From positions 1 to 24,123 of IMG/VR virus record IMGVR_UViG_3300048014_000073: DNA of 24,123 bases; one strand, 5' to 3'. Source of the stretch: a virus. Made by a program: the position numbers and the translations under genes. Numbering within the stretch: position 1 is the stretch's first letter; each line of letters opens with the position of its first letter. This document shows positions 2,325 to 18,362 of this stretch, piece after piece. Under the pieces are notes generated by a model that was given only the letters and a program-made list of their open reading frames with translations, was not told the DNA's origin and ran no database searches.

Positions 2325-3008
2325 TTGAGCTACGGAAAGCGATGGGCTGCAACGACATTCGCCTCCGGTGGCCCAAACGATCACTCAATCAGGCCCGGAA
2401 GCGCCCTAGAAAGGGTGCTGCTACCAGACGATCTACGCAAACTGTTCGAGGTTGGGCGCATGATCCAGTGCGTCTATTTCATCCAAGGTCGCTCAAGCGG
2501 ACTCGTGAAAATCGGCTTTACGACCAACCTGAGGCAACGGATTGCTGGTCTAGCGATGCACTGCGCCGAAGACCTCGAAGTGATCGGCTTCCTACTGGGA
2601 TGCGGAGTCGAGACGGAGCAATCACTGCACTGGCGTTTGGCAGAAGATCGGGTACGCGGTGAATGGTTCAAGCCGAGCGACACCGTGCTAGGACTCGCAT
2701 CCGGTGAACTCATCTTGACGGTCGCTGGAATCAGGCCATCTAAAGCGACAGCGTCTAACGGTCCACATTCTGTGCTACGATTTTCCGGACGATCTGCGCC
2801 CGCAGCCGGAGAAGCCCCGCAAGGCGAGCTGGCCTACATAGGTCGGCCTTGGCAGTTGGATAGTTTCATCTGGCTCGCAGCGGCTTACGAAAAGCTCGGT
2901 GATCGAGCCATAGCAGCAGAGCTCGGATGTGCACGTCTGACCGTGACTCGTGCTCGTAAGCGACTCGGGATTCCATCACACCGACACGGACGCCGACGTG
3001 GATCATGA
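2325..3008 (+). CDS. T5orf172/MUG113 (GIY-YIG-like) protein with C-terminal HTH
   Basis: 227 residues from a TTG directly after the previous stop, with GAGGAG seven bases upstream. Residues about 48-125 show the T5orf172/MUG113 pattern related to GIY-YIG nucleases: CVYFIQG, then GLVKIGFTTNLRQRI, an ETEQSLHWRL segment and RGEWFKPSD. The C-terminal 50 residues (AIAAELGCARLTVTRARKRL, then a basic GIPSHRHGRRRG tail) look like a helix-turn-helix. Such proteins bind or cut DNA, and many are phage-borne nuclease or homing relatives. Whether it still cuts is not visible. It overlaps the next gene by ATGA. Confidence 0.7.
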   Translation: MSYGKRWAATTFASGGPNDHSIRPGSALERVLLPDDLRKLFEVGRMIQCVYFIQGRSSGLVKIGFTTNLRQRIAGLAMHCAEDLEVIGFLLGCGVETEQSLHWRLAEDRVRGEWFKPSDTVLGLASGELILTVAGIRPSKATASNGPHSVLRFSGRSAPAAGEAPQGELAYIGRPWQLDSFIWLAAAYEKLGDRAIAAELGCARLTVTRARKRLGIPSHRHGRRRGS

Positions 3009-3868: not shown

Positions 3869-4153
3869 ATGGCACTCCCACACGCATGCGGACACTGCGG
3901 CGCAACCCACCCCAAAGGCCAACGCTGCCGCAACACAACCCAACGCGGCTACGGCGCAACCTGGCAAACCATCAGCAAACAAGTCATCACCGAAGAAGGC
4001 TGCTGCACCGACTGCGGCCACACAGGCTCAACAGACAACCCACTCACCTGCGACCACATCATCCCCAAAGCACACGGCGGCACAGACGACAGACACAACC
4101 TCACCTGTCGATGCCGCAAACACAACAGCGCCAAAGGGGCGGGGCGCGGGTAA
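3869..4153 (+). CDS. HNH endonuclease next to the terminase genes
   Basis: 94 residues. Two zinc pairs are visible (CGHCG near the start; CTDCG and a C-terminal CRCRKHN), together with the HNH core LTCDHIIPKAHGGTDDRHNLT, which carries the catalytic DH, the middle Asn and the final His (KHNSAKG). Small HNH proteins encoded next to terminase genes are common in HK97-type phages and, in studied cases, work with the terminase in DNA packaging. The ATG follows the previous stop without a gap. Codon third positions are nearly exclusively C or A, in sharp contrast to the terminase genes that start about 80 bases later. Confidence 0.85.
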   Translation: MALPHACGHCGATHPKGQRCRNTTQRGYGATWQTISKQVITEEGCCTDCGHTGSTDNPLTCDHIIPKAHGGTDDRHNLTCRCRKHNSAKGAGRG

Positions 4154-4235: not shown

Positions 4236-4793
4236 ATGGCGCGTACTGGGCGACCTCCGAAGCCGATTGAGCAGAAGCGCCGTACTGGTAATCCTGGGCA
4301 GCGTAAGTTGCCGTCGAACACGGTGGCGTTGCGTCCGGCGGATGGTGTTCCTCCGGTGCCGATTGATTTGAAGCCGGCGGGCCGGACGATGTGGTCGATG
4401 GTTTGGGGTGGTCCGGCTGCGGTGTGGTTGTCGCCGGAGGTTGATGCGATTAGGGTGCATACGGTCGCGCGTTTGTTGGACGAGATTGAGGAGTATCACA
4501 AGCTTGTGACTGGTTTGGGCCCGGTGCTTGAGGAGCCGATCGTGACGCCTTCGGGGAAGGTGGTTGCGGATTCGGCTCGGTTTGTGCCTAATCCGGCGGT
4601 TCGGATGTTGCGTGATGCGCAGAAGCAGTTGGATAGGGAGTTGAGTGCGCTTGGCTTTGACCCAACCGCCCGTTCGAGGCTCGGGCTCGCGGAAGTCAAG
4701 CGCGAGTCGATCCTCCAGCGTCTCCTCGGCACCGACCAGGGGCAAGACGATGGAACCATCGAGGCCGACGTTGTCGAAATCCTCGCTGACTAG
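4236..4793 (+). CDS. terS: Terminase small subunit (P27 family)
   Basis: 185 residues. The start ATG at 4236 is preferred over an in-frame upstream ATG because TGAGGGGG lies just upstream and the protein then begins with the family hallmark MARTGRPPKPIEQKRRTGNP. The rest fits the P27-like small terminase: a proline-rich linker, WSMVWGG, a helical RVHTVARLLDEIEEYHKLV segment, NPAVRMLRDAQKQLDRELSA, and LGFDPTARSRLGLAEV. It recognises phage DNA and presents it to the large subunit. Its last 44 bases overlap the proposed start of the large subunit. Confidence 0.85.
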   Translation: MARTGRPPKPIEQKRRTGNPGQRKLPSNTVALRPADGVPPVPIDLKPAGRTMWSMVWGGPAAVWLSPEVDAIRVHTVARLLDEIEEYHKLVTGLGPVLEEPIVTPSGKVVADSARFVPNPAVRMLRDAQKQLDRELSALGFDPTARSRLGLAEVKRESILQRLLGTDQGQDDGTIEADVVEILAD

Positions 4794-7392
4794 CGTTGCT
4801 GGTTGGCCGCCGCTGCATTTGACGCCGGTTCCGGTTGAGGACATGCGCCGGGGTGATGGCGCGAAGGTGATTCAGCGTGTCGAGGCGTTGTGCACGGTCA
4901 GTAAGGATGGGATCGCGGCGAGGGCTGGTGAGCCGTTGCTGTTGCGCGCGTGGCAGCGGCAGTTGATCTTGCGTTTGTTCGCTCGTCGCCCGGACGGTAA
5001 GCGTCGGCATCGGGTGGCTTTGATCGGGATGCCGCGCAAGAACGGTAAGGACTTGGACTGTGCGACGCCGATCCTTACCACAGATGGCTGGAAGACGATG
5101 GGTTCCGTCGAGACGGGTGATTCTGTCTACGGTTCAGACGGAAAGCCAACTCGGGTTATTGCGGTATCAGAGGTCTTTGTTGGCAACCGGTGCTACGAGG
5201 TCGGGTTTACGGACGGCGCCGCCATTGTCGCCGGCGAAGACCATCAATGGCACGTTTGGGACAAGGATGGCCACGACCCGGCTGAATATGTGGCTGCGAA
5301 ACAGCGTGGCGACAAGAAGCCGCATGGCGCTTGGCGGACACTCACCACATCTCAAATTGCGGCCGTTAGATGGCGTCATGATCGGGCTAACGGTAGCGCT
5401 GAGTTTCGTTTTCGGGTTTCGTGTGACGCACAAGTCGATACGCCCGACCAAGCACTCTTGGTTGATCCCTACATCTTGGGTTATTGGCTCGGCGACGGGT
5501 TATCAACCTCTGCGCGTATCAAGGTAGGGGCCGAGGATCTAGCACACGTCATCACCCAGGTTGAGGACGCCGGTTATCGCGTGGTCTCTGCCAACAGGGA
5601 TGCTGGCAAGACAGCTTCAACGGTGTGCTTCAACACGCGAGACGGTCGACGTGGTGGCCGGACCGGTGTGACCCCCGACCTCCGAGCTCTGGGTGTTCTG
5701 CGCAACAAGCACATACCAGAGAAATATCTCAACGCGTCTATCGCGCAACGCAAAGCGTTGCTGGCAGGGCTGCTCGACTCTGACGGTACGATCACGACGA
5801 CCCAGAACAAATCGCCACGAGTGGAGTTCTGCGTTGTTTCTAAGCGACTCGCTCGCGATGTGTTGGTCCTTGTCCGCAGTTTGGGAATACGAGCGACTCT
5901 GAGAGAGGCTGACGCAGTTCTTGATGGCAGGGTCGTCGTCGGCACTAGATATCGAGTGTGCTGGACGCCGACGTTTAACCCGTTTCGGCTGGCTCGCAAG
6001 TCGCGGCGTTTCTCATCGCCTACGAGCCAACGTCACGAGCTTATGAGCATTACGGGGCTGCGCGAAGTGCCATCGGTCCCGACTCGTTGCATTGAGATTG
6101 AGAACTCCGACGGGGTGTATCTCGTTGGAGATCTCTTCACCCCGACGCACAATTCGGCGCTTGGGTCGGCGTTCGCGCTTGACGGCCTGGTGTTCGATGG
6201 GCGTGGGGCTGAGGTGTATTCGGCGGCGGCTGAGGAGAAGCAGGCCCGGATCGTTTTTGATGAGACGAAGCGGACGGTCATGGCGAACGCTGAGCTTCGT
6301 GAGTTGTGCGAGCCGATGCGGTCGGTGATTGAGGTTCCGTCGACGAACTCGATTTACCGGGTGTTGACGGCGAAGGCGATCACGAAGGAGGGTTTGAACG
6401 TCAGCCGCGGGATCGTTGATGAGTTGCATGCTCATGCGACGGACGAGCTCTGGAATGTGTTGAACTTGGCGACGGGCGCGCGGGATGAGCCGATGGTGAT
6501 CGCGATCACAACGGCGGGTGTGCGAACGGATCGTTTGGGTGAGGACTCGATCTGTTACCGGCTGTTCAAATATGGTGTTGATGTTGCCGCGGGCCGGATT
6601 GACGACCCTACGTTTTTCTTTGCGTGGTGGGGCGCTCCGGATGATGCGGACCACACCGATCCTGAGGTTTGGCGGATCGCGAACCCGGGCTACGACGACA
6701 TTTTGAACCCGGAGGATTTGGCGTCAGCGGTTCGGCGTACCCCGGAGAATGAGTTTCGGGCGAAACGGCTGAATCAGTGGGTTGCGGCTGCGGTCGCATG
6801 GTTTCAGGCCGGTCAGTGGGAGGCGTGTAGTCAACCTGATATTGGCGCGCCGGCTGATGGCTCTTCGGTGGTTCTTGGGTTTGACGGGTCGTATTCGGGT
6901 GACTCGACTGCGCTGGTTGTTTGCACGACGGGGTTGCGTCCGCATTTGGACACGGTTCGGTTGTGGGAGAACCCTGATCCGAACGATGCTGGTTGGCGTG
7001 TGCCGCGCGGGGATGTGAAGGACGCGATTCGTGCTGCGTGTAAGCGCTGGCATGTGGAGGAGATCGCTGCCGACCCTCACATTTGGGTGCATGATCTTGA
7101 GGAGCTGTTGGGTGAGGGTTTGCCGGTGGTGGCGTATCCGCAGGTCGGTTCGCAGATGCTGGCTGCGACGCAACGGTTTTATGAGCTGGTCGCTAACCGG
7201 GCGATCACTCATGCGGGTGACGAGGATTTGGCTCGGCATATCGCGAACGCGGTGTTGAAAACGGATTCGCGTGGCTCACGGCTGGTGAAGGATCGTGCGC
7301 GCTCAACCCGGCGGATTGATTTGGCGGTCGCTTCGGTGATGGCTGTTGATCGTGCCGCGCAGGCGAAGAAACCGAGCTTCAAGATCTATTGA
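4750..7392 (+). CDS. terL: Terminase large subunit, interrupted by an intein
   Basis: 880 residues as translated, about 512 after removal of the 368-residue intein. The ATPase part has Walker A as GMPRKNGK joined to SALG after splicing, Walker B as GIVDELHAH, and a coupling motif near VIAITTAG. The nuclease part has VVLGFDGSYSGDSTA, then EEIAADPHIWVHD and RRIDLAVASVMAVD, which supply the acidic metal ligands of the RNase H-like fold. The protein drives DNA into the prohead and cuts it. ATG at 4750 (AGGGGC eight bases upstream) is the likely start, overlapping the small subunit; the frame is open from 4645, and a TTG at 4771 is another option. Function depends on splicing, because the ATP-binding loop is split. 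Confidence 0.92.
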   Translation: MEPSRPTLSKSSLTSVAGWPPLHLTPVPVEDMRRGDGAKVIQRVEALCTVSKDGIAARAGEPLLLRAWQRQLILRLFARRPDGKRRHRVALIGMPRKNGKDLDCATPILTTDGWKTMGSVETGDSVYGSDGKPTRVIAVSEVFVGNRCYEVGFTDGAAIVAGEDHQWHVWDKDGHDPAEYVAAKQRGDKKPHGAWRTLTTSQIAAVRWRHDRANGSAEFRFRVSCDAQVDTPDQALLVDPYILGYWLGDGLSTSARIKVGAEDLAHVITQVEDAGYRVVSANRDAGKTASTVCFNTRDGRRGGRTGVTPDLRALGVLRNKHIPEKYLNASIAQRKALLAGLLDSDGTITTTQNKSPRVEFCVVSKRLARDVLVLVRSLGIRATLREADAVLDGRVVVGTRYRVCWTPTFNPFRLARKSRRFSSPTSQRHELMSITGLREVPSVPTRCIEIENSDGVYLVGDLFTPTHNSALGSAFALDGLVFDGRGAEVYSAAAEEKQARIVFDETKRTVMANAELRELCEPMRSVIEVPSTNSIYRVLTAKAITKEGLNVSRGIVDELHAHATDELWNVLNLATGARDEPMVIAITTAGVRTDRLGEDSICYRLFKYGVDVAAGRIDDPTFFFAWWGAPDDADHTDPEVWRIANPGYDDILNPEDLASAVRRTPENEFRAKRLNQWVAAAVAWFQAGQWEACSQPDIGAPADGSSVVLGFDGSYSGDSTALVVCTTGLRPHLDTVRLWENPDPNDAGWRVPRGDVKDAIRAACKRWHVEEIAADPHIWVHDLEELLGEGLPVVAYPQVGSQMLAATQRFYELVANRAITHAGDEDLARHIANAVLKTDSRGSRLVKDRARSTRRIDLAVASVMAVDRAAQAKKPSFKIY
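5050..6153 (+). mobile_element. Intein with LAGLIDADG homing endonuclease (class 3-like)
   Basis: 368 residues inserted between Lys and Ser of the Walker A GK/S. The N-terminal splicing block reads DLDCATPILTTDGW, so residue 1 is Asp, not Cys or Ser. Block B reads GEDHQWHV with Trp at position 67; block F reads TRCIEIENSDGVYLVG with Cys at 347; block G ends FTPTHN with Thr at 366, followed by Ser as first C-extein residue. Trp-Cys-Thr with a non-nucleophilic first residue is the signature of class 3 inteins. Between the blocks are two LAGLIDADG motifs (ILGYWLGDG and LLAGLLDSDG) with intact acidic residues, so the homing endonuclease looks active. Reading the Cys at position 4 as the first residue would leave three extra residues inside the ATP loop. 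Confidence 0.9.
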
Positions 7393-8866: not shown

Positions 8867-8934
8867 CCGATTTGTGGGGTTCCTTCGTCTTCTTTGCCGC
8901 AGTGGTCGCAGCGGCATCCGGTTAGCTTGGTCAT
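8785..8934 (-). CDS. Small Cys-motif protein at the end of the minus-strand cassette
   Basis: 49 residues. Its ATG overlaps the stop of the Nop-like gene (ATGA, minus strand), as in a translationally coupled operon. The N-terminal half (MTKLTGCRCDHCGKEDEG) has a CxCxxC cluster; the C-terminal half is Pro/Ala-rich and runs antisense through the end of the portal gene. It may be a tiny zinc-binding protein or a chance ORF. The coupling and the cysteine cluster favour a real gene, while the antisense overlap argues for caution. Confidence 0.35.
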   Translation of the reverse strand: MTKLTGCRCDHCGKEDEGTPQIGQSASSPPGPAAPPDKAFTGALFNGAA

Positions 8935-9584
8935 GCGCCAACCTTTCGTGCTTCGAGGAATAGGTCTTTGAGGACAGCCTTGGCGACGCATCGCAGGGCG
9001 TGCTGATGCTTGTGGGCCTCGGTCGTGTCGCGGGCAGCCCAGTTCTCACGAGCGTCAAGGTACTTCGCTCCATACGGCGTGATGGATTGACGGTTGATCC
9101 AGTCATAGCCGTCGCTGTCGTCGCAGCCATCAAGCTTGCGGACACCCGCCCTCAAGCACGATTCGGCAACAAGGAACGCCCGCATCTTGGCATCAGCGTT
9201 CCAGTTTGATCGCACGCCTTTCTGTCGTCGCTGGCCGGGCACGAATCCACAATAGGCCCACAATTCAGCGGGACCACGGCGCGGTCGTCCCGCGGCCTTG
9301 TTGTAGCTCACGTTCTCGATGGCGGCAACTAGTCGCGCGCCCTGCTTCGGTCCGACGCCTTTCTGGTTCTTTATCCACGGCCCGAGTGGATGTTTGCGAA
9401 CGGCTCGCTGGAGTGAGAGCACGGCTGCGTGTTCGAGGGCTGTTAGCTGGTGTAGCTGTGCACCGTATTGATCTGGCGAGAAGCCTTCGCGAACGAACGC
9501 ACCCAGGCGGGCTTCTGTGGCCATGCGGAGCGATTCCACATCGTTTAGCCATTCGGCGCAAAATTTCAGCTCGACAGTAGCCAA
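8931..9584 (-). CDS. tasA-like: Tas-like protein: Nop / IS110 C-terminal-like RNA-binding domain, no nuclease
   Basis: About 217 residues from TTG 9584; GTG 9539 and ATG 9524 are other possible starts, and the frame is open back to 10145 through the array. First comes a helical region (WLNDVESLRMATEARLGAFV, then HQLTALEHAAVLSLQRAVRK). Next is a block resembling the Nop and IS110/IS116 C-terminal (Transposase_20) domain: GVGPKQGARLVAAIENV, PAELWAYCGFVPGQRRQKG, ANWN-like SNWNADAKMRAFLVAESCLR. A basic C-terminal helix (ALRCVAKAVLKDLFLEARKV) follows a His-rich turn. Transposases of the IS110 family also need an N-terminal RuvC-like DEDD domain, which is absent, and there is no HNH. A Nop domain beside a dual-spacer array is the definition of a TIGR-associated (Tas) protein; the nuclease-less form is TasA. 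It would bind array-derived RNAs and use them to find DNA. Confidence 0.75.
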   Translation of the reverse strand: MATVELKFCAEWLNDVESLRMATEARLGAFVREGFSPDQYGAQLHQLTALEHAAVLSLQRAVRKHPLGPWIKNQKGVGPKQGARLVAAIENVSYNKAAGRPRRGPAELWAYCGFVPGQRRQKGVRSNWNADAKMRAFLVAESCLRAGVRKLDGCDDSDGYDWINRQSITPYGAKYLDARENWAARDTTEAHKHQHALRCVAKAVLKDLFLEARKVGA

Positions 9585-9599
9585 GCTACTGTTGAGCTG
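9567..9599 (-). terminator. Terminator-like hairpin between array and Tas-like gene
   Basis: On the minus strand CAGCTC-A-ACAGTAGC pairs with GCTACTGT-C-GAGCTG around a TTG loop: 14 perfect base pairs plus one A/C mismatch. AAATTTTG follows on the minus strand, giving the U-rich tail expected of an intrinsic terminator. It lies 3' of the last array unit and 5' of most of the Tas-like coding sequence, so it may end or attenuate the guide-RNA transcript. The TTG in its loop is also the first possible start codon of the protein after the array. Confidence 0.55.
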
Positions 9600-9601
9600 A
9601 A

Positions 9602-10117
9602 TCGGAGACGTAACGAGCTCGGGAATCGAACGGCCATTGGTCTCCGAAGGGGTTGCAGCGACGCGTACGACATGGGCGTCGGCCGACTGTTGGTCGCTGC
9701 AAGATGATGCGCCGACGGCCGATCTGCGGAGTTCGCGAGCGAGTTGGTCGGCGCAAGGGGATGCCGGAGACGAATGCCGTATGGGCATCGTACGACGCAT
9801 GGTCTCCGGCAAGTGGTTGGTGACAGCGACAGACAACGGCTCGTCGCTGGGCATCGCGCTCAACATGGTCTCCGAAGGGGTTGCAGCGACGTGGAGGGTC
9901 TGGGCGTCGCGTGAGTCCTGGTCGCTGCAAGATGATGCGCCGACGGGGGACGTTCGGAGTTCGTTCGCGGTCTGGTCGGCGCAAGGGGATGCCGGAGACG
10001 ACCCGACGTTGGGCATCGCGCTGATCATGGTCTCCGGCAAGTGGTTGGTGACAGCGACAGACAACGTCGGATTTCTGGGCATCGCGGCGGCTGTGGTCGT
10101 CATGCCGTTGTCACCAA
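9602..10117 (-). repeat. TIGR-like array: nine units, each with two 9-nt spacers
   Basis: Each unit is a 27-base core: 9-nt spacer, 9-nt loop repeat, 9-nt spacer. Core positions in minus-strand order are 10093-10067, 10027-10001, 9972-9946, 9918-9892, 9865-9839, 9799-9773, 9744-9718, 9690-9664 and 9637-9611. Minus-strand loop repeats are CGATGCCCA (four units), CGAACTCCG (two), CGACGCCCA (two) and CGATTCCCG (one). Cores are separated by edges of 26, 27, 28 or 39 bases. Each core is bracketed by GAC-CA on the left and C-GTC on the right, extended by longer complementary arms. Spacer pairs (minus strand): cagccgccg/gaaatccga, tgatcagcg/acgtcgggt, gaccgcgaa/aacgtcccc, ggactcacg/gaccctcca, tgttgagcg/gcgacgagc, tgcgtcgta/tacggcatt, actcgctcg/cagatcggc, acagtcggc/tgtcgtacg, atggccgtt/agctcgtta. 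All 18 differ. The minus orientation is inferred from the adjacent gene. Confidence 0.88.
9639..10094 (-). repeat. 228-bp block duplication inside the array
   Basis: Positions 9639-9866 and 9867-10094 are two contiguous copies of a four-unit block in the same order of edge and loop types. Edge and loop segments are nearly identical between copies, while the eight spacer pairs differ throughout. The ninth unit (9611-9637) lies outside the block. The period is exactly 228 bases, a multiple of three, which keeps the minus frame open. Confidence 0.88.
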
Positions 10118-10444
10118 GAGTCCGGGACGCCCGAGCTGATCCCACTCAGCCACGGTAGCCGCGCCACAACCCTCAAGGGCGGTCGCGTACTTTTCGGCCG
10201 CAATTGCCTTCGCCTCTATCTCGCTGGCGCGCTGACGCTGCTCCTCGGCGTAAGCGAGTAAATCCTCGACGCCGCAATCCTCAACCCACTTGTGCTCGCC
10301 GCCAACGGAGATCGCAATCCCAAGGTCATCGAGTATCACCCGAGCGCGAGCCATCCACGACGCACCCTCCACACGCTGAGCAACATGTGGACGACGAAGT
10401 TGGTGCAGCTCGTTCTCCGCGATCTTCTCCAACGCCCAACGCAC
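10100..10444 (-). CDS. C-terminal part of a frameshifted unknown protein
   Basis: The frame is open on the minus strand from just after a TAA at 10477-10475 to the TGA at 10102-10100; GTG 10444 is the first start. It encodes a helical protein (WALEKIAENELHQLRRPHV, then SWMARARVILDDLGIAISV, EDLLAYAEEQRQRASEIEAK). The segment before GTG 10444 also reads as good protein (LVASGAADFLVRWALEKIAE) and continues naturally from the other frame of the overlapping 10336-10650 ORF. The two are therefore probably one protein of about 174 residues broken by a one-base shift. The stop overlaps an ATG (ATGA) of the frame that runs through the array. Function unknown. Confidence 0.55.
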   Translation of the reverse strand: MRWALEKIAENELHQLRRPHVAQRVEGASWMARARVILDDLGIAISVGGEHKWVEDCGVEDLLAYAEEQRQRASEIEAKAIAAEKYATALEGCGAATVAEWDQLGRPGLLVTTA

Positions 10445-10650
10445 AAGAAAATCAGCGGCACCCGAGGCAACGAGTTAAGCACGCAATCAGCGATCAGGCG
10501 CGGATCGGGATCGCTGACCACGCCAAAAGCCTCGCGCGTTAACAGGCGGACTGCGGCGCCCCAATCATCTTTATTTTTCGACCGCCCGGACGGTGGAACT
10601 TCGGGCTTCGCCGTCAGCTCGGTCCGGGCGGAAGTTTTAGTGGTGCTCAT
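10336..10650 (-). CDS. N-terminal part of a frameshifted unknown protein
   Basis: The ATG at 10650 overlaps the stop of the wHTH gene upstream (ATGA, minus strand). The first 60 residues look like real protein: a basic, polar leader with PEVPPSGRSKNKDD, then a helix WGAAVRLLTREAFGVVSD and DPRLIADCVLN. After about 10474 the frame becomes unlikely (RWRRSRRTSC, then Cys/Trp-rich sequence), while the neighbouring frame becomes good. Joining them by a -1 shift at AAC/CTC (around 10474) gives VLN-LVASGAADFLV. It is either a mutation, a sequencing error or a programmed shift; I see no classic slippery heptamer. Function unknown. Confidence 0.5.
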   Translation of the reverse strand: MSTTKTSARTELTAKPEVPPSGRSKNKDDWGAAVRLLTREAFGVVSDPDPRLIADCVLNSLPRVPLIFLCVGRWRRSRRTSCTNFVVHMLLSVWRVRRGWLALG

Positions 10651-10862
10651 CGCGTCATCTCCCAGAGCCCTCCATGCGGGCCGTTGTGAATCTCAACAAT
10701 CCCGGCAGCCTTAGCGGCGCGGGTAAGCGTGCGGCGGCTAACGCCACGCTCCAAACCCTCAGCGACGATCTCGGCTATCGGGATGCGGTCACGGTGGGCG
10801 AACATTTCAGCGAGCTGCGCATCAGCAATCTCGCGCTTCGTAAGAGGCTCCATATCCGCCAA
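10647..10862 (-). CDS. Small winged-helix DNA-binding protein
   Basis: 71 residues from TTG 10862; ATG 10853 gives 68 residues and is equally plausible. Residues about 28-71 (IAEIVAEGLERGVSRRTLTR, then AAKAAGIVEIH and GGLWEMTR) resemble the small winged-helix module found at the end of phage replicative AAA/primase proteins, in which a recognition helix precedes a GxxxxxW wing. It is first in the minus-strand cassette, only about 48 bases from the divergent protease gene, so it could regulate the cassette. That role is inference. Confidence 0.6.
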   Translation of the reverse strand: MADMEPLTKREIADAQLAEMFAHRDRIPIAEIVAEGLERGVSRRTLTRAAKAAGIVEIHNGPHGGLWEMTR

Positions 10863-10910: not shown

Positions 10911-12266
10911 ATGCCCGCAGAGCACAACACTGAGGAGCGCAAGCTGCTCTCCACAGAGGAGATGAACAACCTCCCCGACGAGGACTTTGCGTACATCGAG
11001 CCGGGTGGCGAGAAAGACGCGAGCGGCAAGACCACCCCACGCTCACTGCGCCACTACCCGGTGCAAGACAAGACGCACGCCCTGAACGCGCTTCAACGCG
11101 CCGAGGCGCAAACCAAAAACGACGGTCCCGGCAAGGACATTGCTGAGAAGGCGATGCCCGCCATTCTCGCCGCATGCCACAAGTTCGGGATCGATGTGGG
11201 CGGTAACAGCGAAGCGAAATCGTTCCGTGCCGATGCCGCGGACTGCTCAACATGTGACGGCACCGGCAAAATCAAGGCTGGCACCACCACCTGCCCAACA
11301 TGCAACGGGACCGGCAAACAAACCGATGAGGCTGAGTCCAAGCCAAGGATCGGGAGTGTCCGGGAGCCGGTACCCGCCGCGTTCCGTGGCGACATGATTC
11401 AGGTCCGTGAGGAGCGGGTACCGGTCCGCCGCGAGTTTGAGCTGCGAGAAGTCCCGAACGGGGCTGGCGGCACAAACCTGCGGTTCACCGGGTTCGCGTG
11501 CGTCACCGACGCCCGCTATGAGATGGAGGACTGGCTCGGCACGTTCGGCGAGACCGTTTCAAAAGGCTCGTTCACGAAAACCCTCGACGAGGGTGCTGAT
11601 GTGGCGTTCCTGCTGAACCATCAAGGGATGGCTCTCGCGCGCACGAAGAGCGGCACGATGAAACTGTCTGAGGTCACGGAGCCGGGACTGAGCCCTGTCA
11701 TCGGGGTGACCGGGCTGCACACCGAGGCTTTGCTTGACGCCGCGAACCCGCAGATCGCTGCGATCCGGTCCGCGGTTGAGCGCGGCGACCTGGATGAGAT
11801 GAGTTTCGCGTTCCGTGTGATGCGCCAGGAATGGAACGATGATTACAGCGAGCGGTACATCAACGAGGTGTCGCTTGACAAGGGAGACACCTCGCTTGTG
11901 AACTATGGCGCGAACCCGCATACGGGTGGCACGGTCGCGTTGCGGCAGCGTGCGATGACCCGTGACCGTTTTGATGTGCAGGCCGTGCTCGCGGCGGCTG
12001 TTGCGGAGATGCGTGCCGGCAAGACGATCAGTGCGCAAACGGCCGCGAAGTTGCAGGAGGCTTACCCGCACCTGGATTCGATGGGTGCGGCGGCCGACGG
12101 CATCAAGAGCATGGTTGATGATTTGATCGCGATGAACGCACCGGACCCGGAGGCTGAGTCGGCAGCGCCACCGGACGTGTCGGCTGCGCTTGGCTGGTTC
12201 CGGTCGATGGATTTGAATGCGGATCGGGCTCGTCTTGCACTTCTGCGCAACCGGAGGGCTGCCTAA
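10911..12266 (+). CDS. Prohead protease (S78/U35) fused to DUF6582-like and zinc-knuckle segments
   Basis: 451 residues from ATG 10911, chosen for the AGAGGAGG upstream (an in-frame ATG at 10884 has no such site). Residues about 15-95 (NLPDEDFAYIEPGGEKDASG, PRSLRHYPV, KAMPAILAACHKFGID) match the DUF6582-type domain often fused to phage proteases. Then come two CxxCxGxG knuckles (CSTCDGTG and CPTCNGTG) like half a DnaJ zinc finger. The protease domain starts near VRREFELREV and has LLNHQG with the likely catalytic His and LDEMSFAFRV with the Ser, then VSLDKGDTSLVNYGANPHT. It trims capsid proteins during head maturation. The C-terminal 100 residues may act as scaffold. The stop overlaps the next ATG (TAATG). 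Confidence 0.9.
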   Translation: MPAEHNTEERKLLSTEEMNNLPDEDFAYIEPGGEKDASGKTTPRSLRHYPVQDKTHALNALQRAEAQTKNDGPGKDIAEKAMPAILAACHKFGIDVGGNSEAKSFRADAADCSTCDGTGKIKAGTTTCPTCNGTGKQTDEAESKPRIGSVREPVPAAFRGDMIQVREERVPVRREFELREVPNGAGGTNLRFTGFACVTDARYEMEDWLGTFGETVSKGSFTKTLDEGADVAFLLNHQGMALARTKSGTMKLSEVTEPGLSPVIGVTGLHTEALLDAANPQIAAIRSAVERGDLDEMSFAFRVMRQEWNDDYSERYINEVSLDKGDTSLVNYGANPHTGGTVALRQRAMTRDRFDVQAVLAAAVAEMRAGKTISAQTAAKLQEAYPHLDSMGAAADGIKSMVDDLIAMNAPDPEAESAAPPDVSAALGWFRSMDLNADRARLALLRNRRAA

Positions 12267-13552
12267 TGGCTGACATTGAGCCGATCACCGTTGAGGTCAA
12301 CGCGGACACATCCAAGCCCGAACGCTCCCTTGAGCAGTTGGAGCGATTGACAAGCCCGAGTGTGCGGATCACGCATGAGCCGTTAACCTACCGTCGTGAC
12401 ACTCCCGCCTCCTACTTTCAGGACTTCCTGTTCCGGGACAAGCCCGGTGCGCAGGAGCGACTCAGGCAGCACGCCAACGAAATGGACGTGCTCCGCGTCG
12501 ACCGTGCCAAGGCGCAGCACGCACGGCTCCATGCAGCAGGCATTGAGTACCGCATCGAACCGAACCGCACCGACGGGTACGGCGGCTACTTCTCCCCGCC
12601 CGCATGGTTGAACCAGCAGTTCGCGACCGGCCGACACGCACCACGGGTACTAGCCGACCTGATCGCGACCGCGGGCGCCGCGTTCCCGCTCCCGGCCGGT
12701 GTGTCACAGGTCAACATCCCGATCATCATGGCGAACGGCACATCCACCCAGATTCAGGGTGATGACAATGCCGTCCCAGGGAAAGGCATCACCGACCAGG
12801 CTGGGACGGGTGCGGTCGTGACGATCTCAAGCACCGAGGCGATCTCACTGCAGCTACTGGAGCAGTCCCCTGCGGGCGCGCACATGGACTACGTGATTTT
12901 CAAGGACATGAAAGAGTCCTATGACGCGCAGCTCGAGGCGCAGTTGATCGCGGGCACCGGAAGCGTCACGCCTAACGGCGGGTCGAACCAGATCCTTGGT
13001 GTGATCAACGTGCCGGGCATCACTGTCGTGCAGTACAACTCCGGTTCGCCAACGGGCCCGGCAATGTGGCCGTCGTTCGGTCAGGCTGTCGGTACGCTCG
13101 CGGACACGCGGCTGCTGCCCCCGGAGGTGTGGTTGTGGCGTACGGGCCGGTTCGCATGGTTGATGGGGCAGGAGGATTCGCAGAACCGTCCGCTTGGTTT
13201 GCCATCCCCGTTCTTTTTCGGTAACACCGATGACAGCCCCGACCCGATCACCGGCATTTACGGTTACCCAGTGTTTGGTGATGAGGCGATCCCGAACACG
13301 TTGACGTTCAACGCTGCCACAAGCACCTTCTCGAACGGTGCGACCATAAACCAGGATGTGCTGATCGCGTTGCGACCATCGGACCTGATGCTGTTCGAGG
13401 GTGACTTCCAGGTGTCCGAGAACCCTGACCCGCTTTCTGGTGCTCTTGGAACCCGGCTGGTGATGCACAACTATGTTGCTGCGATCACCCGGTATGCGAC
13501 GAGCATCGCGGTCGTCACTGGGACCGGGTGCTCATACCCGACGGCCTACTGA
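12266..13552 (+). CDS. Major-capsid-like protein 1 (HK97 fold)
   Basis: 428 residues, start coupled to the protease stop. The N-terminal region is shorter than in the next gene and lacks a long coiled coil. The core follows HK97-type capsid proteins: DGYGGYFSPPAWLNQQF, LPAGVSQVNIPIIMANG, SLQLLEQSPAGAHMDYVIFKDM, a QLEAQLIAGTG segment, a RFAWLMGQEDSQNRPLG loop, and a C-terminal LRPSDLMLFEGDFQVSENPD then TRLVMHNYVAAITRYATSIA. It shares clear segments with the following capsid-like protein (QHANEMDV against QHAKELRV; LQLLEQSP in both), so the two are paralogues. It may be the main capsid subunit, a minor one, or a penton or decoration variant. Confidence 0.85.
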   Translation: MADIEPITVEVNADTSKPERSLEQLERLTSPSVRITHEPLTYRRDTPASYFQDFLFRDKPGAQERLRQHANEMDVLRVDRAKAQHARLHAAGIEYRIEPNRTDGYGGYFSPPAWLNQQFATGRHAPRVLADLIATAGAAFPLPAGVSQVNIPIIMANGTSTQIQGDDNAVPGKGITDQAGTGAVVTISSTEAISLQLLEQSPAGAHMDYVIFKDMKESYDAQLEAQLIAGTGSVTPNGGSNQILGVINVPGITVVQYNSGSPTGPAMWPSFGQAVGTLADTRLLPPEVWLWRTGRFAWLMGQEDSQNRPLGLPSPFFFGNTDDSPDPITGIYGYPVFGDEAIPNTLTFNAATSTFSNGATINQDVLIALRPSDLMLFEGDFQVSENPDPLSGALGTRLVMHNYVAAITRYATSIAVVTGTGCSYPTAY

Positions 13553-13677
13553 TCTTCTAACCCCTTGTAGGACCCTTTGCGCCGGACCCCGGCCCGGGCG
13601 TACGCCGACCATTCCCCTTGGGGGTGGCTCACCTACGCTCAGGACTGGGGCACCACCCGAAGGGAGCAAGCAAACCA

Positions 13678-13695
13678 CACGCCAGACCTGGCGTG
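13678..13695 (+). terminator. Hairpin between the two capsid-like genes
   Basis: CACGCCAG and CTGGCGTG are perfectly complementary around AC, followed by TTCTCC, in the 168-base gap 13553-13720. The same gap has a CCCCTTGGGG palindrome near 13613. It could attenuate transcription between the two capsid-like genes or protect an mRNA end. The ribosome site of the second gene (AAAGGATGGTGGG) follows. Confidence 0.4.
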
Positions 13696-13720
13696 TTCTC
13701 CCCGAAAGGATGGTGGGCTA

Positions 13721-15385
13721 ATGCCTGCCGAAATCAAGGACCGGACGCTCTCTGAGCGCCTGGAGGCGAAGCGTGCCGAGATGGTTGAGGCCATCGAGAA
13801 GCGCATCAATGAACGCGAGGCTCTTGAGCACGCGTTTGAGGAGCGGATGGGTGGTGACAAGAAGCCGTCTGATGCTGAGGTCACCGCTCACACGGAGCAG
13901 CGTGCCGCGTACCGTGCCGAGATGGATCAGGCATGGGCTGAGGTCGCTGAGCTTGACGCGCGTGTGAAGGATCAGGCGGACGTTGAGCGGCGTCGTGACG
14001 AGGCTGCTGACGCTGCGAAGCGTTCCGCGATCGGTCCGGTCGAGATCGTGGTTGAGCCGATGACGTATGAGCGGTACAAGGCTCAGGGTGAGGACGGTGT
14101 TTCGTACTACCGTGATCTCGCCGCCGCGCTTGTCCCGGGCATCGTGTTTCAGGGCACCGACCAGTCGCAGGCGCTTGAGCGTCTGAACCAGCACGCAAAG
14201 GAACTCCGTGTGGAGATGCCGAAGCGTGAGAAGGAGAAGACGGCACGCGCAAGGAAGCAGCTTGACGAGGCTGAGGGCCGTGCTCTCAGTTCCATCGGCG
14301 ATCCGTTCTCGCAGAACAGCCAGAAGTTCCGGGATATCTACAACCCGTTTGAGCAGCGTGTTGAGCCGAACGCTCAGCCCGGTGCCGGCGGCTACTTCAT
14401 CCCCCCGCTTTGGCTTGTTGACCAGTTCATCCCAGGGCTCCGTGCCCACCTGATCGCAGCCGGACTATGCCGTCAGCTTGACCTGCCGGCCGGTACCGAC
14501 TCGATCAACATCCCGAAGCTCGCGAACCTGACCACGGTCGGGTATCAGCAGATGAACAACGCCGGTCTGCCGTCCGCGGACTGGTCGGACACGTCTGTCA
14601 CGGCGAACATTAAAACGATCGGGGGTTACTCCGATGTGGCTTTGCAGCTGCTGGAGCAGTCGCCGCACATGATCGTTGATGAGGTCGTGACAACGGACCT
14701 GATGGCCGCCCACAACAAGTTCCTTGACCAGCAGGTCATTGCCGGTGACGGCATCGACACCGGGTCTTTGAACGGCGGGCATCTCCAGGGCATCTACAAC
14801 GGTGCTGGCGGGTCCGCGTGGTCAAACGCGAACGTTGTGACGTACACGTCCGGGTCACCGGCACCGTGGCACTTCCCGTCGATCGTGGGTGCGATGGCAT
14901 CCCAGATCGCGGAGACACGTTTCGACGCGAGCAATTTCAAGCTCGTGACGCACGGCCGCCGGTGGTTCTGGGCGTCGACTGGTGTGGACTCGAACGATCG
15001 TCCGTTGGGCGAGTCAATGTCGGGTGGCCGGTTCAACATTGCTGCGGCGGTGCAGTCCGGTTTGCAGGCCGAGGGTCTGGTCGGCACGATGCCGGCGGTT
15101 GCTGATGTGCCGGTTTACATTGACGACAACATCACCACGACGGACACGACCGGCTCGGGCAGCGGTCAGGATGTCGCGATCGCGGCACTGTGGGATGACT
15201 GCTGGCTGTTCCGTGGTGATGTGCGCACGAACGTGTACCGGGAGATCCTGTCCGGGTCGCTTGGCGTTCGTTTTCAGGCGTACTCGTATGACGGGTTCCT
15301 GGTGCGTTACGGCCAGTCGCTTGCGATTGCGTGCGGCACTGGCTTCGCGGCTCCGCAGGGTGCCGTGGCCTCGATCCTGTACTAG
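13721..15385 (+). CDS. Major-capsid-like protein 2 with coiled-coil delta domain (HK97 fold)
   Basis: 554 residues from ATG 13721. The frame is open upstream, but that part lies in the intergenic region. Residues 1-100 are a charged coiled coil (LSERLEAKRAEMVEAIEKRI, then AEVAELDARVKDQADVERRR), typical of the scaffolding delta domain removed by the protease. A capsid core follows: PGAGGYFIPPLWLVDQFIPG, LPAGTDSINIPKLANLTTVG, DVALQLLEQSPHMIVDEVV, FLDQQVIAGDG, VTHGRRWFWASTGVDSNDRP and FQAYSYDGFLVRYGQSLAIACG. Because it has the full delta domain it is the better candidate for the main capsid subunit. It is homologous to the preceding protein. Confidence 0.9.
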   Translation: MPAEIKDRTLSERLEAKRAEMVEAIEKRINEREALEHAFEERMGGDKKPSDAEVTAHTEQRAAYRAEMDQAWAEVAELDARVKDQADVERRRDEAADAAKRSAIGPVEIVVEPMTYERYKAQGEDGVSYYRDLAAALVPGIVFQGTDQSQALERLNQHAKELRVEMPKREKEKTARARKQLDEAEGRALSSIGDPFSQNSQKFRDIYNPFEQRVEPNAQPGAGGYFIPPLWLVDQFIPGLRAHLIAAGLCRQLDLPAGTDSINIPKLANLTTVGYQQMNNAGLPSADWSDTSVTANIKTIGGYSDVALQLLEQSPHMIVDEVVTTDLMAAHNKFLDQQVIAGDGIDTGSLNGGHLQGIYNGAGGSAWSNANVVTYTSGSPAPWHFPSIVGAMASQIAETRFDASNFKLVTHGRRWFWASTGVDSNDRPLGESMSGGRFNIAAAVQSGLQAEGLVGTMPAVADVPVYIDDNITTTDTTGSGSGQDVAIAALWDDCWLFRGDVRTNVYREILSGSLGVRFQAYSYDGFLVRYGQSLAIACGTGFAAPQGAVASILY

Positions 15386-15456: not shown

Positions 15457-16101
15457 ATGCCTGGCGATCTCGTGGGCGGCGCCTACCCGCTGTCCTACTC
15501 GCTGCGTAAGGCCTTCGGGCTGCAAGCAAACGCCACTCAGGGAAACCTGGGTGTCCGGTCGAACGTTGAGTGGTTCGGCTATGCCGATATCACTGACGCG
15601 ACGGCGTCTCTCGTTTCGGCTTCCATGACCGTTGTGGCGGTCCCGGTTGAGAACGGTGACGTGTTCACGACATGTGCCATTGCGGTCGGTAACACGGCGG
15701 CGGGCACCCCGACGCACCAGTGGGTGCAGTTGTACACGGGTGCGTTGACGACCGCGCTTCCTTTAGGCACGCAGTCGGTGGACGGCACTTCGACGGCGAT
15801 CCCGTCGAAGAAGTTGTACACGTTCACGTTGCCTTCGGGGATTGTGATCAACACGAACTCGACGGCGAACGGTGGGAACGCCCCGTACGGCTACGTCTAT
15901 GTTGGGATCGGGATGACGGCCACGACGGTCCCGTCGTTGTGTGGCGGGAATGTCGCGGTGAACTGCCAGTATGCGCGGTTCCCGAACTCGCCCCCGTTCC
16001 TGGCGGGGACGATCTCAGCATCGGGTGCTACCGCTCCGACGAGCGTCACTCTGGCGTCCGTCACAGCGATCGCCACCGTGCCCGAGGTGTACCTGTACTA
16101 G
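15457..16101 (+). CDS. Probable structural protein (capsid decoration or similar)
   Basis: 214 residues from ATG 15457, with AAAGGAG six bases upstream; the in-frame extension upstream covers the hairpin and is unlikely. The sequence is rich in Thr, Ser, Val, Ala and Gly, with many short beta stretches (ATASLVSASMTVVAVPVENG, THQWVQLYTGALTTALPLG, YGYVYVGIGMTATTVPSLCG) and no enzyme motif. Its place after the capsid gene, its own strong ribosome site and hairpins on both sides suggest an abundant virion protein, perhaps a head decoration protein. Family not recognised. Confidence 0.7.
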   Translation: MPGDLVGGAYPLSYSLRKAFGLQANATQGNLGVRSNVEWFGYADITDATASLVSASMTVVAVPVENGDVFTTCAIAVGNTAAGTPTHQWVQLYTGALTTALPLGTQSVDGTSTAIPSKKLYTFTLPSGIVINTNSTANGGNAPYGYVYVGIGMTATTVPSLCGGNVAVNCQYARFPNSPPFLAGTISASGATAPTSVTLASVTAIATVPEVYLY

Positions 16102-16110
16102 AAGTGAGCG

Positions 16111-16138
16111 CGCGCCCCGGCCCTGTGGTCGGGGCGCG
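16111..16138 (+). terminator. Strong GC-rich hairpin after the structural gene
   Basis: CGCGCCCCGGCC (16111-16122) pairs with GGTCGGGGCGCG (16127-16138), twelve pairs including one G-T, with a CTGT tetraloop. It starts nine bases after the stop. There is no long T-run (GTAGTTCGTT follows), but the stem is strong enough to end or reduce transcription into the glycosyltransferase island. Confidence 0.6.
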
Positions 16139-16202
16139 TAGTTCGTTGACGTCCGGGGGGCTTCGCATAATCCTGCTCGCCGTTCCCAAGCCAAGGGGAT
16201 TG

Positions 16203-16859
16203 ATGGTCGCTTTAGTCGTGATTACGGATGGTCGCCGGGACTGCTTGAAGCGGTCGGCGGCGAGCATGCGTGAGCAGCTCAGGCCGTGGCCCGAGTATCG
16301 GTTCATCATTGATGACTCAGGCGATGAGGGCTACGGCCTGATGCTTGACGAGACGTTCCCAGACTTCGACGTTGCGCATCACAGCGAGCGGCGCGGGTTC
16401 TGCGGCACTGTCCGATCCGCATGGGAAGTCGGGCTCGCCTCGGGCGCGCCTTTCATTTTTCACGCGGAGGACGACTTCACCTACAGCGAGCCGGTCGATT
16501 TGAACGGGCTCGCCGTGGTTCTTGACGTGAACCCGCATCTGGCGCAGATCGCGTTGAAACGCCAGCCCGTGAACAATGAGGAACGCGCAGCCGGTGACTT
16601 CATGGGGGCGTGGCCTGCTGAGACATGGGTTCAGCGTGACGGGTTCATTGAGCATGAGCTGACGTTCACCACGAACCCGAGCCTGATCCCGCGCAGGGTG
16701 ATCGAATTGATCCTCTCCACCGGTGTGGATTGCGCGGAGACGATCATCACTGGCCAGCTTCTCGCGAACGGTTACAAGCTCGGGTATGTCGGTGAGGTCG
16801 CTGATCCGCCGAGGGTTGAGCACATCGGGGATCACCGGACCGCGGAGTGGACGCCGTAA
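16203..16859 (+). CDS. Glycosyltransferase, GT-A fold (GT2-like)
   Basis: 218 residues from ATG 16203, with AAGGGG six bases upstream. It begins MVALVVITDGRRDCLKRSAA, the usual first beta strand and helix of GT2 enzymes. RFIIDDSGDEGYG follows as the second strand, and PFIFHAEDDFTY supplies the DxD-like metal and nucleotide-sugar motif. Later come ALKRQPVNNEER, TFTTNPSLIPRRVIE, and a C-terminal PPRVEHIGDHRT with a His often seen near the active site. It would transfer a sugar from a nucleotide donor to an unknown acceptor, plausibly a virion protein given the surroundings. The stop overlaps the next ATG. Confidence 0.8.
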   Translation: MVALVVITDGRRDCLKRSAASMREQLRPWPEYRFIIDDSGDEGYGLMLDETFPDFDVAHHSERRGFCGTVRSAWEVGLASGAPFIFHAEDDFTYSEPVDLNGLAVVLDVNPHLAQIALKRQPVNNEERAAGDFMGAWPAETWVQRDGFIEHELTFTTNPSLIPRRVIELILSTGVDCAETIITGQLLANGYKLGYVGEVADPPRVEHIGDHRTAEWTP

Positions 16860-17020
16860 TGGCCTCGAACTGGAAACTAGAGCTAGCCGAGAAGCGCATC
16901 GTGGAGCTTGAGGCCGAGAACGCAAAGCTAGCCGCCGCACTTCAAGCGCTCGAGACGCGCGTTATTGACGCGGCCGACGCGCTTGGTTTGATCCTCTGGG
17001 ATCCGGAAGTGGACCGATGA
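16859..17020 (+). CDS. Short coiled-coil protein
   Basis: 53 residues; the ATG shares a base with the previous stop (TAATG) and the end overlaps the next start (ATGA). Residues about 6-35 (LELAEKRIVELEAENAKLAA, then ALQALETRV) form a clear heptad coiled coil, followed by ALGLILWDPEVDR. It may oligomerise or tether a neighbouring enzyme; the function is unknown. Confidence 0.6.
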   Translation: MASNWKLELAEKRIVELEAENAKLAAALQALETRVIDAADALGLILWDPEVDR

Positions 17021-17637
17021 CTGGCTACGACGATCAGTTCTGGATCGACTCGACCCGTGAGGCGACGGATGCAGCTCCGATCATGCTGCCGGTGGTCCTT
17101 GAGGCGACGAAGGCCAAGACGGTGATTGACGTGGGCTGTGGGCATGGCGTCTGGGCTGCGACGGCGGTTGAGCTTGGTTGTGAGGCGTGGGGCGTCGATG
17201 GGTATGTTCCTCCCGAGCGCTTGCGTCTGGCACCGGATCGCTTTCTGCAGGTTGACCTCAAGCGCGGCTTCGATTGTTCGGGCCTTGATCTGTCGATCTG
17301 CCTTGAGGTTGCGGAGCATTTGCATGAGGCCGCCGCGCCGCTACTGGTCGAAGGATTGTGCAAAGCCAAGTTCGTGTTCTGGTCCGCAGCCATTCCCGGC
17401 CAGGGTGGGATCAACCACTTCAACGAGCAGTGGCCGTCATGGTGGGCGCGTCTGTTCGCCCGTCACGGCTACGTCGGGTCGAGTGACATCGGGACCCGCT
17501 TCTGGGATGACCGCCGAATCGTGAGTTTCTACCGTCAGAACGCGATCGTTTGGGCTACACCTGAGAATCTTGCGGAAGCGGGGTTTGAGGAAGGTGTGCT
17601 TGATCGGACGCACCCGGATAAGGCGCTCGGGCTGTGA
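17017..17637 (+). CDS. SAM-dependent methyltransferase (class I)
   Basis: 206 residues. KTVIDVGCGHGVWAATAVEL is motif I of the Rossmann-type methyltransferases and binds S-adenosylmethionine. GVDGYVPPERL has the acidic residue at the end of the second strand, and DLSICLEVAEHLHEAAAPLL is the post-motif helix common in sugar and small-molecule methyltransferases of the methyltransferase 11/23 group. Downstream GGINHFNEQWPSWWARLFAR and FWDDRRIVSFYRQN are typical of enzymes encoded in glycan clusters. The likely substrate is a sugar added by the neighbouring glycosyltransferases. It starts in an ATGA overlap and ends overlapping the next GTG. Confidence 0.82.
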   Translation: MTGYDDQFWIDSTREATDAAPIMLPVVLEATKAKTVIDVGCGHGVWAATAVELGCEAWGVDGYVPPERLRLAPDRFLQVDLKRGFDCSGLDLSICLEVAEHLHEAAAPLLVEGLCKAKFVFWSAAIPGQGGINHFNEQWPSWWARLFARHGYVGSSDIGTRFWDDRRIVSFYRQNAIVWATPENLAEAGFEEGVLDRTHPDKALGL

Positions 17638-18362
17638 CTGTCGCCGGGATCAGCATGGTCCGCAACGAGGCTGACATCCTCGATGCGTCGATCCGTCACA
17701 TGCTCAACCAGGGCGTGGACTTCCTGCTGATCGCGGATCACGGCTCGACGGATGGGACGCGGGAGATCCTTGAGTCCTTCGATGAAGTGACGTGGATGAC
17801 GAACGACGATCCGGATTACCGGCAGGTTGCGTGGATGAACGAATTGGCGTGGCTTGCGCACTCGCGCGGCGCTGACTGGCTGATCCCCTTCGATGCCGAT
17901 GAGATATGGCTCTCAGCCCTCCCGGACCGGGTGGATCGGCTTACTCTCAAGGAGCATCTTGAGGGCTGGCCCGACGGCCGCACTGGGTCCTACTGGGCGA
18001 CGCTCTACCACCACCGCGACTGGGACCATAAGTTCATTCCTGCTGAGCCGCTTCCAAAGGTGGCCTATCGCTGGTCATCGACCGCGAAGCTCGCGGCGGG
18101 CAATCATTCCGTCGAAGGGCTTGATCCGCGATGGATGGTCGGGAGCGGCCTTGAGATACGCCATCTTCAGTACCGCTCGGCTGAGCATTTCATCGCGAAG
18201 GTCCGAGATCACAACTCGACGTTGACACCGGAGATGCGTGAGCGTGGGGAGGGTGCCCACAAGTCGCAGTACGAGGGCCTCTCACCGGCCGCGCTTCGGA
18301 AGGTGTACGAGCAGATGTGCGCTGAGCCTGTCATCTACGACCCGATCCCATGTTCACGGTAG
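17634..18362 (+). CDS. Glycosyltransferase family 2-like
   Basis: 242 residues from GTG 17634, overlapping the methyltransferase stop. It opens GISMVRNEADILDASIRHML and continues FLLIADHGSTDGTREILESF, the classic GT2 beginning with an NGSTDGT-type motif. WLIPFDADEIW supplies the DxD equivalent. HHRDWDHKF, KVAYRW, AAGNHSVEG and EIRHLQYRSAEHFIAKV match GT2 proteins of the DUF4422/GT92-like kind, with the final His near the active site. Acceptor unknown. It overlaps the next gene by 13 bases. Confidence 0.82.
   Translation: MTVAGISMVRNEADILDASIRHMLNQGVDFLLIADHGSTDGTREILESFDEVTWMTNDDPDYRQVAWMNELAWLAHSRGADWLIPFDADEIWLSALPDRVDRLTLKEHLEGWPDGRTGSYWATLYHHRDWDHKFIPAEPLPKVAYRWSSTAKLAAGNHSVEGLDPRWMVGSGLEIRHLQYRSAEHFIAKVRDHNSTLTPEMRERGEGAHKSQYEGLSPAALRKVYEQMCAEPVIYDPIPCSR

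Follow-up and report, generated by a model that had tools for sequence, protein, structure and literature searches.

A phage TIGR-TasA stem-loop array that appears to be translated as part of its tas gene

The virus record IMGVR_UViG_3300048014_000073, analysed here over its whole length of 24,123 bases (positions 1–24,123; hereafter the window), carries on its minus strand nine tandem units with paired 9-nucleotide (nt) spacers, followed by a gene for a Tas protein that has no nuclease domain. Comparison with related actinophage loci makes it very probable that this is a TIGR-TasA stem-loop array which forms one coding unit with tas and acts as a set of guides in the manner outlined below. 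TIGR-Tas systems were described in 2025 (PMC12045711), with the origin of the spacers, their maturation and their natural role left open. The novelty of the present locus lies in the location of the array within the tas coding sequence, in the exchange of spacers, and of spacers only, after a duplication, and in a conserved companion gene.

The array and its hairpin units

An original prediction, made from the letters of this DNA, had placed nine guide-RNA-like units at 9602–10117 on the minus strand, and all nine are present there in the geometry it gave. Each follows the plan CCA, 9-nt spacer A, 9-nt loop, 9-nt spacer B, CG, with CCA boxes starting on the minus strand at 10096, 10030, 9975, 9921, 9868, 9802, 9747, 9693 and 9640. 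The 18 spacers are all distinct, again as predicted, and none is common to any other array examined. The loops fall into four types (CGATGCCCA four times, CGACGCCCA and CGAACTCCG twice each, CGATTCCCG once) instead of the three main ones first proposed. Linkers between cores measure 39, 28, 27 and 26 nt, giving unit-to-unit spacings of 66, 55, 54 and 53. The features of the array and of tas are as follows.

9602–10117, minus strand: TIGR stem-loop array, nine units (unit scan, stem test, folding)
10045–10117, minus strand: unit 1, spacer A CAGCCGCCG (10085–10093), loop CGATGCCCA, spacer B GAAATCCGA (10067–10075); long bulged stem GGTGACA..TGTCACC, which includes the tas start codon (z −3.6)
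9990–10039, minus strand: unit 2, A TGATCAGCG, loop CGATGCCCA, B ACGTCGGGT; stem TGCCGGAGAC/GTCTCCGGCA (hairpin scan, folding)
9936–9983, minus strand: unit 3, A GACCGCGAA, loop CGAACTCCG, B AACGTCCCC; stem TGCGCCGAC/GTCGGCGCA (stem test, folding)
9881–9930, minus strand: unit 4, A GGACTCACG, loop CGACGCCCA, B GACCCTCCA; stem TTGCAGCGAC/GTCGCTGCAA (hairpin scan, folding)
9828–9880, minus strand: unit 5, A TGTTGAGCG, loop CGATGCCCA, B GCGACGAGC; 5′ arm of unit-9 type, 3′ arm of unit-1 type, stem lost (z 0.0)
9762–9811, minus strand: unit 6, A TGCGTCGTA, loop CGATGCCCA, B TACGGCATT; edges as unit 2 (hairpin scan, block alignment, folding)
9708–9755, minus strand: unit 7, A ACTCGCTCG, loop CGAACTCCG, B CAGATCGGC; edges as unit 3 (block alignment, folding)
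9653–9702, minus strand: unit 8, A ACAGTCGGC, loop CGACGCCCA, B TGTCGTACG; edges as unit 4 (hairpin scan, block alignment, folding)
9602–9648, minus strand: unit 9, A ATGGCCGTT, loop CGATTCCCG, B AGCTCGTTA; stem CGGAGAC/GTCTCCG (stem test, folding)
9629–10084, minus strand: two tandem 228-nt blocks, 10084–9857 and 9856–9629 (block alignment)
9565–9601, minus strand: strong hairpin separating the array from the sequence that encodes the Nop domain, with two 8-bp stems, one mismatch and a 3-nt loop (z −6.7)
8931–10103, minus strand: tas open reading frame as one protein of 390 amino acids, from an ATG (10103) within an ATGA shared with the companion stop, through an array-coded extension, into the Nop domain (open reading frame, frame comparison)
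8931–9581, minus strand: TasA core, coiled coil and Nop domain, no nuclease (NCBIfam NF052498, phrog_4285, model, structure comparison)

Each unit is closed by complementary arms, and the first C of its CCA pairs with the G of its CG, the same kind of C–G closure as the box C/D pair described for TasR (PMC12045711). The arrangement CCA-N9-CG....CCA-N9-CG recurs in relatives and in most window units; two of the window loop types end in CCG. When folded with their full arms, units 1–4 and 6–9 form hairpins (z −3.1 to −4.6) and unit 5 does not (z 0.0). The self-pairing edges of 26–39 bases that had been foreseen are therefore confirmed in length, and in pairing across the unit for eight of the nine units, with unit 5 as the exception. 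Assignment to the TIGR dual-repeat class is rejected, the edges being 26–39 nt long and different in sequence as against constant edge repeats of 8–12 nt. Judged from sequence and predicted folding, the array is of the TIGR stem-loop class, in which palindromes varying between units replace the edge repeats. The identification as a guide-like TIGR array thus stands; the product to be expected of the stem-loop class is, however, hairpin units cut in their linkers and not the uniform RNAs of about 36 nt that were cited for TIGR-Tas systems at the outset.

The same arrangement, arrays beside tas, is found in more than 60 actinophage loci, including laboratory mycobacteriophages in which tas is annotated as 'transposase'. 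A tblastn search retrieved 83 phage records with tas, 76 of them mycobacteriophages, and phages of Gordonia, Rhodococcus and Arthrobacter as well. Queried alone against IMG/VR, the Tas core protein gave no confirmed relatives; an alignment-based query added 54 IMG/VR contigs, together with three bacterial genomes. Across 69 fetched loci and the window, a scan for hairpin units found 343, nearly all on the tas strand, as against one in shuffled sequence. A second test chose units without regard to stems. Among its core motifs, 304 lay on the tas strand and 7 on the opposite one, and 9.2 of 10 arm positions were paired, compared with 5.7 for shuffled partners (maximum 6.0 in 200 shuffles); the arms covary over 213 distinct 5′ arm sequences.

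Cluster A mycobacteriophages (for example NC_042327.1 gp74 and NC_023726.1 gp70) carry TasA annotated as 'transposase', 'DNA binding' or 'hypothetical', with arrays of about five units upstream, and some cluster A records annotate a small gene over the array (for example Chanagan 65). Rhodococcus phage Peregrin (locus L008, 2530–2970) has an AT-rich array with the same core boxes and very long perfect stems of up to 25 bp. No other paper treating TIGR arrays of actinophages was found in the literature searched; table S1 of the TIGR paper may already list some of these loci, and that paper cites a mycobacteriophage review (PMC12045711).

The internal structure of the window array records its history. 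When the two 228-nt blocks are aligned position by position, all 156 of 156 non-spacer positions are identical, as against 21 of 72 spacer positions (Fisher p = 3e-34), and this spacer identity is at chance level (26% expected from composition, p = 0.59). A single unequal crossover enlarged the array from five units to nine. As 228 nt correspond to 76 codons, the reading frame was unaffected. Unit 5 is the scar of this event: it is both the predicted hybrid and the sole unit that fails to fold, its stem having been lost because a 5′ arm of unit-9 type was joined to a 3′ arm of unit-1 type. Since every non-spacer position is retained while the spacers match only at chance, the spacers were selectively replaced after the duplication, with no flanking base altered. 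Sibling mycobacteriophages present a comparable picture, in which the same unit keeps a fixed stem and differs in its spacers, at times with A retained and B swapped. The original prediction could be tested by asking whether the 9-mers evolve like ordinary codons or as replaceable cassettes; both in the related mycobacteriophages and between the window block copies they behave as cassettes.

The Tas protein and known systems

The protein encoded downstream of the array matches the NCBIfam model NF052498 (TIGR_Tas) with an E-value of 4.8e-40 and 137.8 bits, compared with a cut-off of 100, and also matches phrog_4285, a family labelled 'transposase'. A Pfam search with the full frame of 404 amino acids matched no family. 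Sequence comparison with the solved TasR structure 9mty gives an E-value of 2.5e-6. An AlphaFold model of the Tas core is predicted with high confidence (pLDDT 90.8) and superimposes on TasR 9mty with a VIA Z of 19.8 (r.m.s.d. value of 1.9 over 184 residues), followed by TasH (Z 17.9), IS621 (Z about 14) and, more distantly, Nop5 (1nt2; Z 8.4). Because the structural match begins at residue 110 of TasR and residue 67 of TasH, past their N-terminal nuclease domains, the window protein is TasA, a nuclease-less Tas. The proposal of such a protein at a phage-borne TIGR array is accordingly upheld by the family match, by the TasR and TasH fold and by the homologous arrays that accompany homologous tas genes in the actinophages.

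The closest described counterpart is the TIGR-TasA stem-loop array reported by Faure et al. (2025) from a Peromyscus gut contig (PMC12045711). In both, TasA consists of the Nop domain without a fused partner, the units are hairpins in tandem, edge repeats give way to palindromes that vary, and the loop is of conserved length. They differ in that the window array is in frame with tas from the ATGA, units in relatives lying even inside the Nop domain, in that a conserved companion gene precedes the array, and in the loops, which in the window are near-constant 9-mers, an intermediate form that the same paper mentions. With the dual-repeat systems of TasR and TasH (PDB 9mty; 9w04, 21kl) the window shares the Nop domain, the coiled coil, 9-nt spacers, the CCA box C and the box C/D G–C pair. 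It differs from them in having neither RuvC nor HNH, in its box D (CG here, UG in TasR) and in its edges, which are 26–39 nt long and form hairpins in contrast to repeats of 8–12 nt.

More distant systems share parts of this architecture. IS621 of the IS110 family has an RNA-binding Nop-like domain as well; the window protein lacks its DEDD domain and is served by a guide array where IS621 has one bridge RNA. The archaeal box C/D snoRNP has in Nop5 a distant Nop fold and the same box C/D logic; the window protein lacks the N-terminal domain that recruits fibrillarin, and its locus has hairpin arrays and a supposed DNA target. In IS200/605 elements the omega RNA of TnpB overlaps the coding sequence of its own effector and bears one guide at the 3′ end. 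The overlap between guide and effector coding is alike in the window, which has instead a many-guide array at the 5′ end. The traits of CRISPR-Cas, a single direct repeat with long spacers and Cas proteins, are absent, the locus having dual 9-nt spacers in hairpins and no Cas gene found beside the array.

A probable shared reading frame for guides and effector

The window tas frame is unbroken across all nine units back to the ATG at 10103, and no Shine-Dalgarno sequence (SD) lies within 75 nt upstream of its Nop core. The original prediction had set the array next to a Tas gene; the adjacency is correct, yet the array is more than a neighbour, since it shares the tas open frame. In the main text of the TIGR paper, arrays are placed upstream and/or downstream of tas and a coding overlap is not mentioned (PMC12045711). 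Among the relatives, 23 loci with at least three units, the window included, combine an ATGA or GTGA start with an unbroken frame through the array. In loci without a nearby SD, the ATGA frame is kept over the distance from the companion stop to the Nop core in 30 of 38 cases (p = 1e-8), and in-frame stops in unit cores are depleted (11/1174, compared with 78/2451 in the other frames; p = 1.6e-5). Loci with an SD just before the Nop core, mostly from cluster A mycobacteriophages, show phases of 7/5/5 with the ATGA frame in 5 of 17, and no in-frame stop bias in their unit cores (p = 0.70). Units occupy the three phases unequally (14/68/63; p = 1e-8), the phase that would make spacers whole codons being avoided.

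Some units are located within the coding sequence of the Nop domain. About 18 loci have between one and three of them there, in frame and in the loop after WAYCG, and the protein around them is conserved (loci listed with Nop-internal units: L006, L038–L040, L042–L044, L046, L048–L050, L052, L054, L056, L058, L059, L061, L062, L065–L067 and L069), and all 30 of 30 such units are free of in-frame stops. Being in frame inside a conserved protein, these units are necessarily translated. Frame preservation in the loci without an SD, stop depletion and the units within the Tas domain together suggest that the guides appear to be translated as part of tas, array and tas forming one coding unit.

Several observations weigh against an in-frame, guide-acting array. 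Shuffling the spacers leaves the window tas frame open in 33% of trials, which makes the window alone weak evidence; the compared loci are related by descent, so that the p-values given above are optimistic and overstate independence; and the companion gene is apparently frameshifted at about 10440–10500, which would disturb coupled translation if real. A rho-independent terminator was sought after the array on the minus strand and none was found. Such a terminator is described as typical, not defining, of the TIGR dual-repeat class (PMC12045711). The hairpin at 9565–9601 is without a long U-run, and a limited scan of relatives returned only one weaker case of it (L006); the array is followed by tas itself. 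Finally, a search for natural targets gave none in the 24 kb of the phage itself, in the fetched loci or in 2.2 Mb of phage DNA that takes in near-complete relatives. That search took all guides in both orders with gaps of 0–2 against permuted spacer pairs, hosts and competitors lying outside the covered DNA. Searching the spacer pairs against phage DNA had been part of the original proposal, and it returned no clear excess of matched targets in the 2.2 Mb once one guide, whose hits came from contigs fetched with its own pattern, was set aside. Two sibling cluster A guides that differ only at codon third positions were considered as a sign of a conserved coding target and dropped as chance: the 63 contigs hit in two whole-collection scans share no gene or frame.

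The open frame by chance and the apparent companion frameshift would also suit a TIGR-TasA stem-loop array that is non-coding, its open frame being a coincidence and translation of TasA starting directly ahead of the Nop domain. Cluster A mycobacteriophages are arranged in exactly this way: their tas is preceded by a GGAGG of its own, and the frame is not conserved. In the window, by contrast, there is no such SD near the Nop core, and the in-frame ATG exactly overlaps the companion stop, as in the 22 other array-bearing loci with an unbroken frame. The frame and stop statistics moreover differ sharply between loci with and without an SD, and the Nop-internal units of relatives are unavoidably translated. 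We consider the non-coding reading unlikely, at roughly one chance in six; it is by some way the most probable of the alternatives.

That the array reads in frame with the downstream gene over its entire length, and that its repeat of 228 nt equals 76 codons, could also reflect a protein repeat of the usual kind at the N terminus of a transposase-like protein, with the RNA playing no part. Against this, units stand in two reading phases within one array, with the result that the same RNA motif yields different peptides; spacers are replaced while all other bases are kept; arms covary over the distinct 5′ arms; and cluster A units lie outside any conserved frame. A protein repeat as the sole explanation is already refuted, and this reading is very improbable. 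An IS110-family transposase with a bridge-RNA-like array is more improbable still. The common Nop/RNA-binding fold, with its similarity to IS621, and the transposase label of phrog_4285 and of many records speak for it, but the alignment of the model to IS621 starts only at residue 127 and leaves out the DEDD RuvC catalytic domain, the structural fit to TasR and TasH is clearly better, the NCBIfam TIGR_Tas match passes its cut-off, and no Pfam transposase model matches.

For the TIGR-TasA array encoded in one unit with tas, the following course of events can be proposed. As comparison of the loci suggests, tas translation would most likely start at the ATGA overlap and run through the array into the Nop domain, and the guide RNAs and the effector N terminus would be one and the same stretch of RNA. 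The transcript is predicted to fold into one hairpin per unit. By analogy with the solved complexes of TasR and TasH and with the stem-loop array already published, a TasA dimer would bind each unit at its two pairs of box C (CCA) and box D (CG), which lie on either side of each spacer, cuts in the linkers would free the units, and spacers A and B would pair with opposite strands of a DNA target. Lacking a nuclease, TasA would be expected to bend the bound target and leave it uncut, and the likely outcome may be that a competing element is silenced or its replication blocked. This role is the weakest step of the proposed mechanism. Release of guides would at the same time destroy the tas message, limiting TasA to the amount of guide. 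A more specific version, which we put forward tentatively and at somewhat less than even chance, is a self-coding guide array in which each RNA serves either as message or as guides and guide release shuts off TasA, with a dedicated process of spacer exchange that is precise to the spacer and has to respect the frame, perhaps with the companion taking part in processing or exchange.

The companion gene and the phage cassette

The array is preceded by further minus-strand frames:

10100–10444, minus strand: companion gene of the phrog_4604 family, C-terminal part, frame ending at the ATGA (E-value 7e-19)
10336–10650, minus strand: open frame resembling the companion N-terminal part, in another frame (apparent frameshift near 10470)
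10647–10862, minus strand: open frame of 71 amino acids, first in the cassette, with an ATGA overlap with the next frame; possible small DNA-binding protein (weak HrcA-like match, E-value 0.23)

A phrog_4604 companion lies directly upstream of array and tas in 67 of 69 loci (missing in L013 and L063), and a family search finds it in 27 of 29 records. In the phage collection it occurs in 80 records and tas in 83, with matching host make-up. Its predicted model is confident and helical; comparison with PDB gave nothing at E ≤ 0.001 by structure and no match by sequence. Its relatives were found in phages only, with no plasmid match. The frameshift in the window copy is apparent, and is either a sequencing error or a real lesion. 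The companion gene is absent from the main text of the TIGR paper (PMC12045711).

Together these frames make up a minus-strand cassette (8931–10862; the 71-residue frame, companion gene, array and tas) whose members are joined by ATGA overlaps. It lies between the portal gene (end 8866) and the protease gene (start 10884) of a window whose plus strand encodes terminase, portal, protease and capsid proteins. The capsid relatives are those of mycobacteriophages of about 110 kb (32% identity), and in all probability the record therefore covers part of a larger actinophage.

Elsewhere on the plus strand, an intein-like homing endonuclease of the LAGLIDADG type (PF14528 and PF05204 in Pfam) interrupts the terminase large subunit (4645–7392), and GIY-YIG-like (MUG113/T5orf172) and HNH endonuclease genes lie near the terminase (2325–3008 and 3869–4153). 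Two adjoining capsid-like genes (12266–13552 and 13577–15385) are 33% identical to each other (E-value 5e-43), the second having a longer N-terminal part. Downstream of them (16100–20200), inspection by eye picks out candidate glycosyltransferases and a methyltransferase (DVGCGHG motif).

An in-frame fusion of guide array and effector gene, in which some guides of relatives even lie within the effector domain, would tie the supply of guides to the supply of protein. The duplicated array, in which every non-spacer base is retained and every spacer changed, amounts to a natural experiment, and this pattern means that some spacer-specific exchange or diversification must act; the constant companion may supply a missing factor. 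Since well-studied laboratory phages of Mycobacterium smegmatis and Gordonia terrae carry TIGR-TasA under the name 'transposase', these questions are open to test in ordinary laboratory strains.
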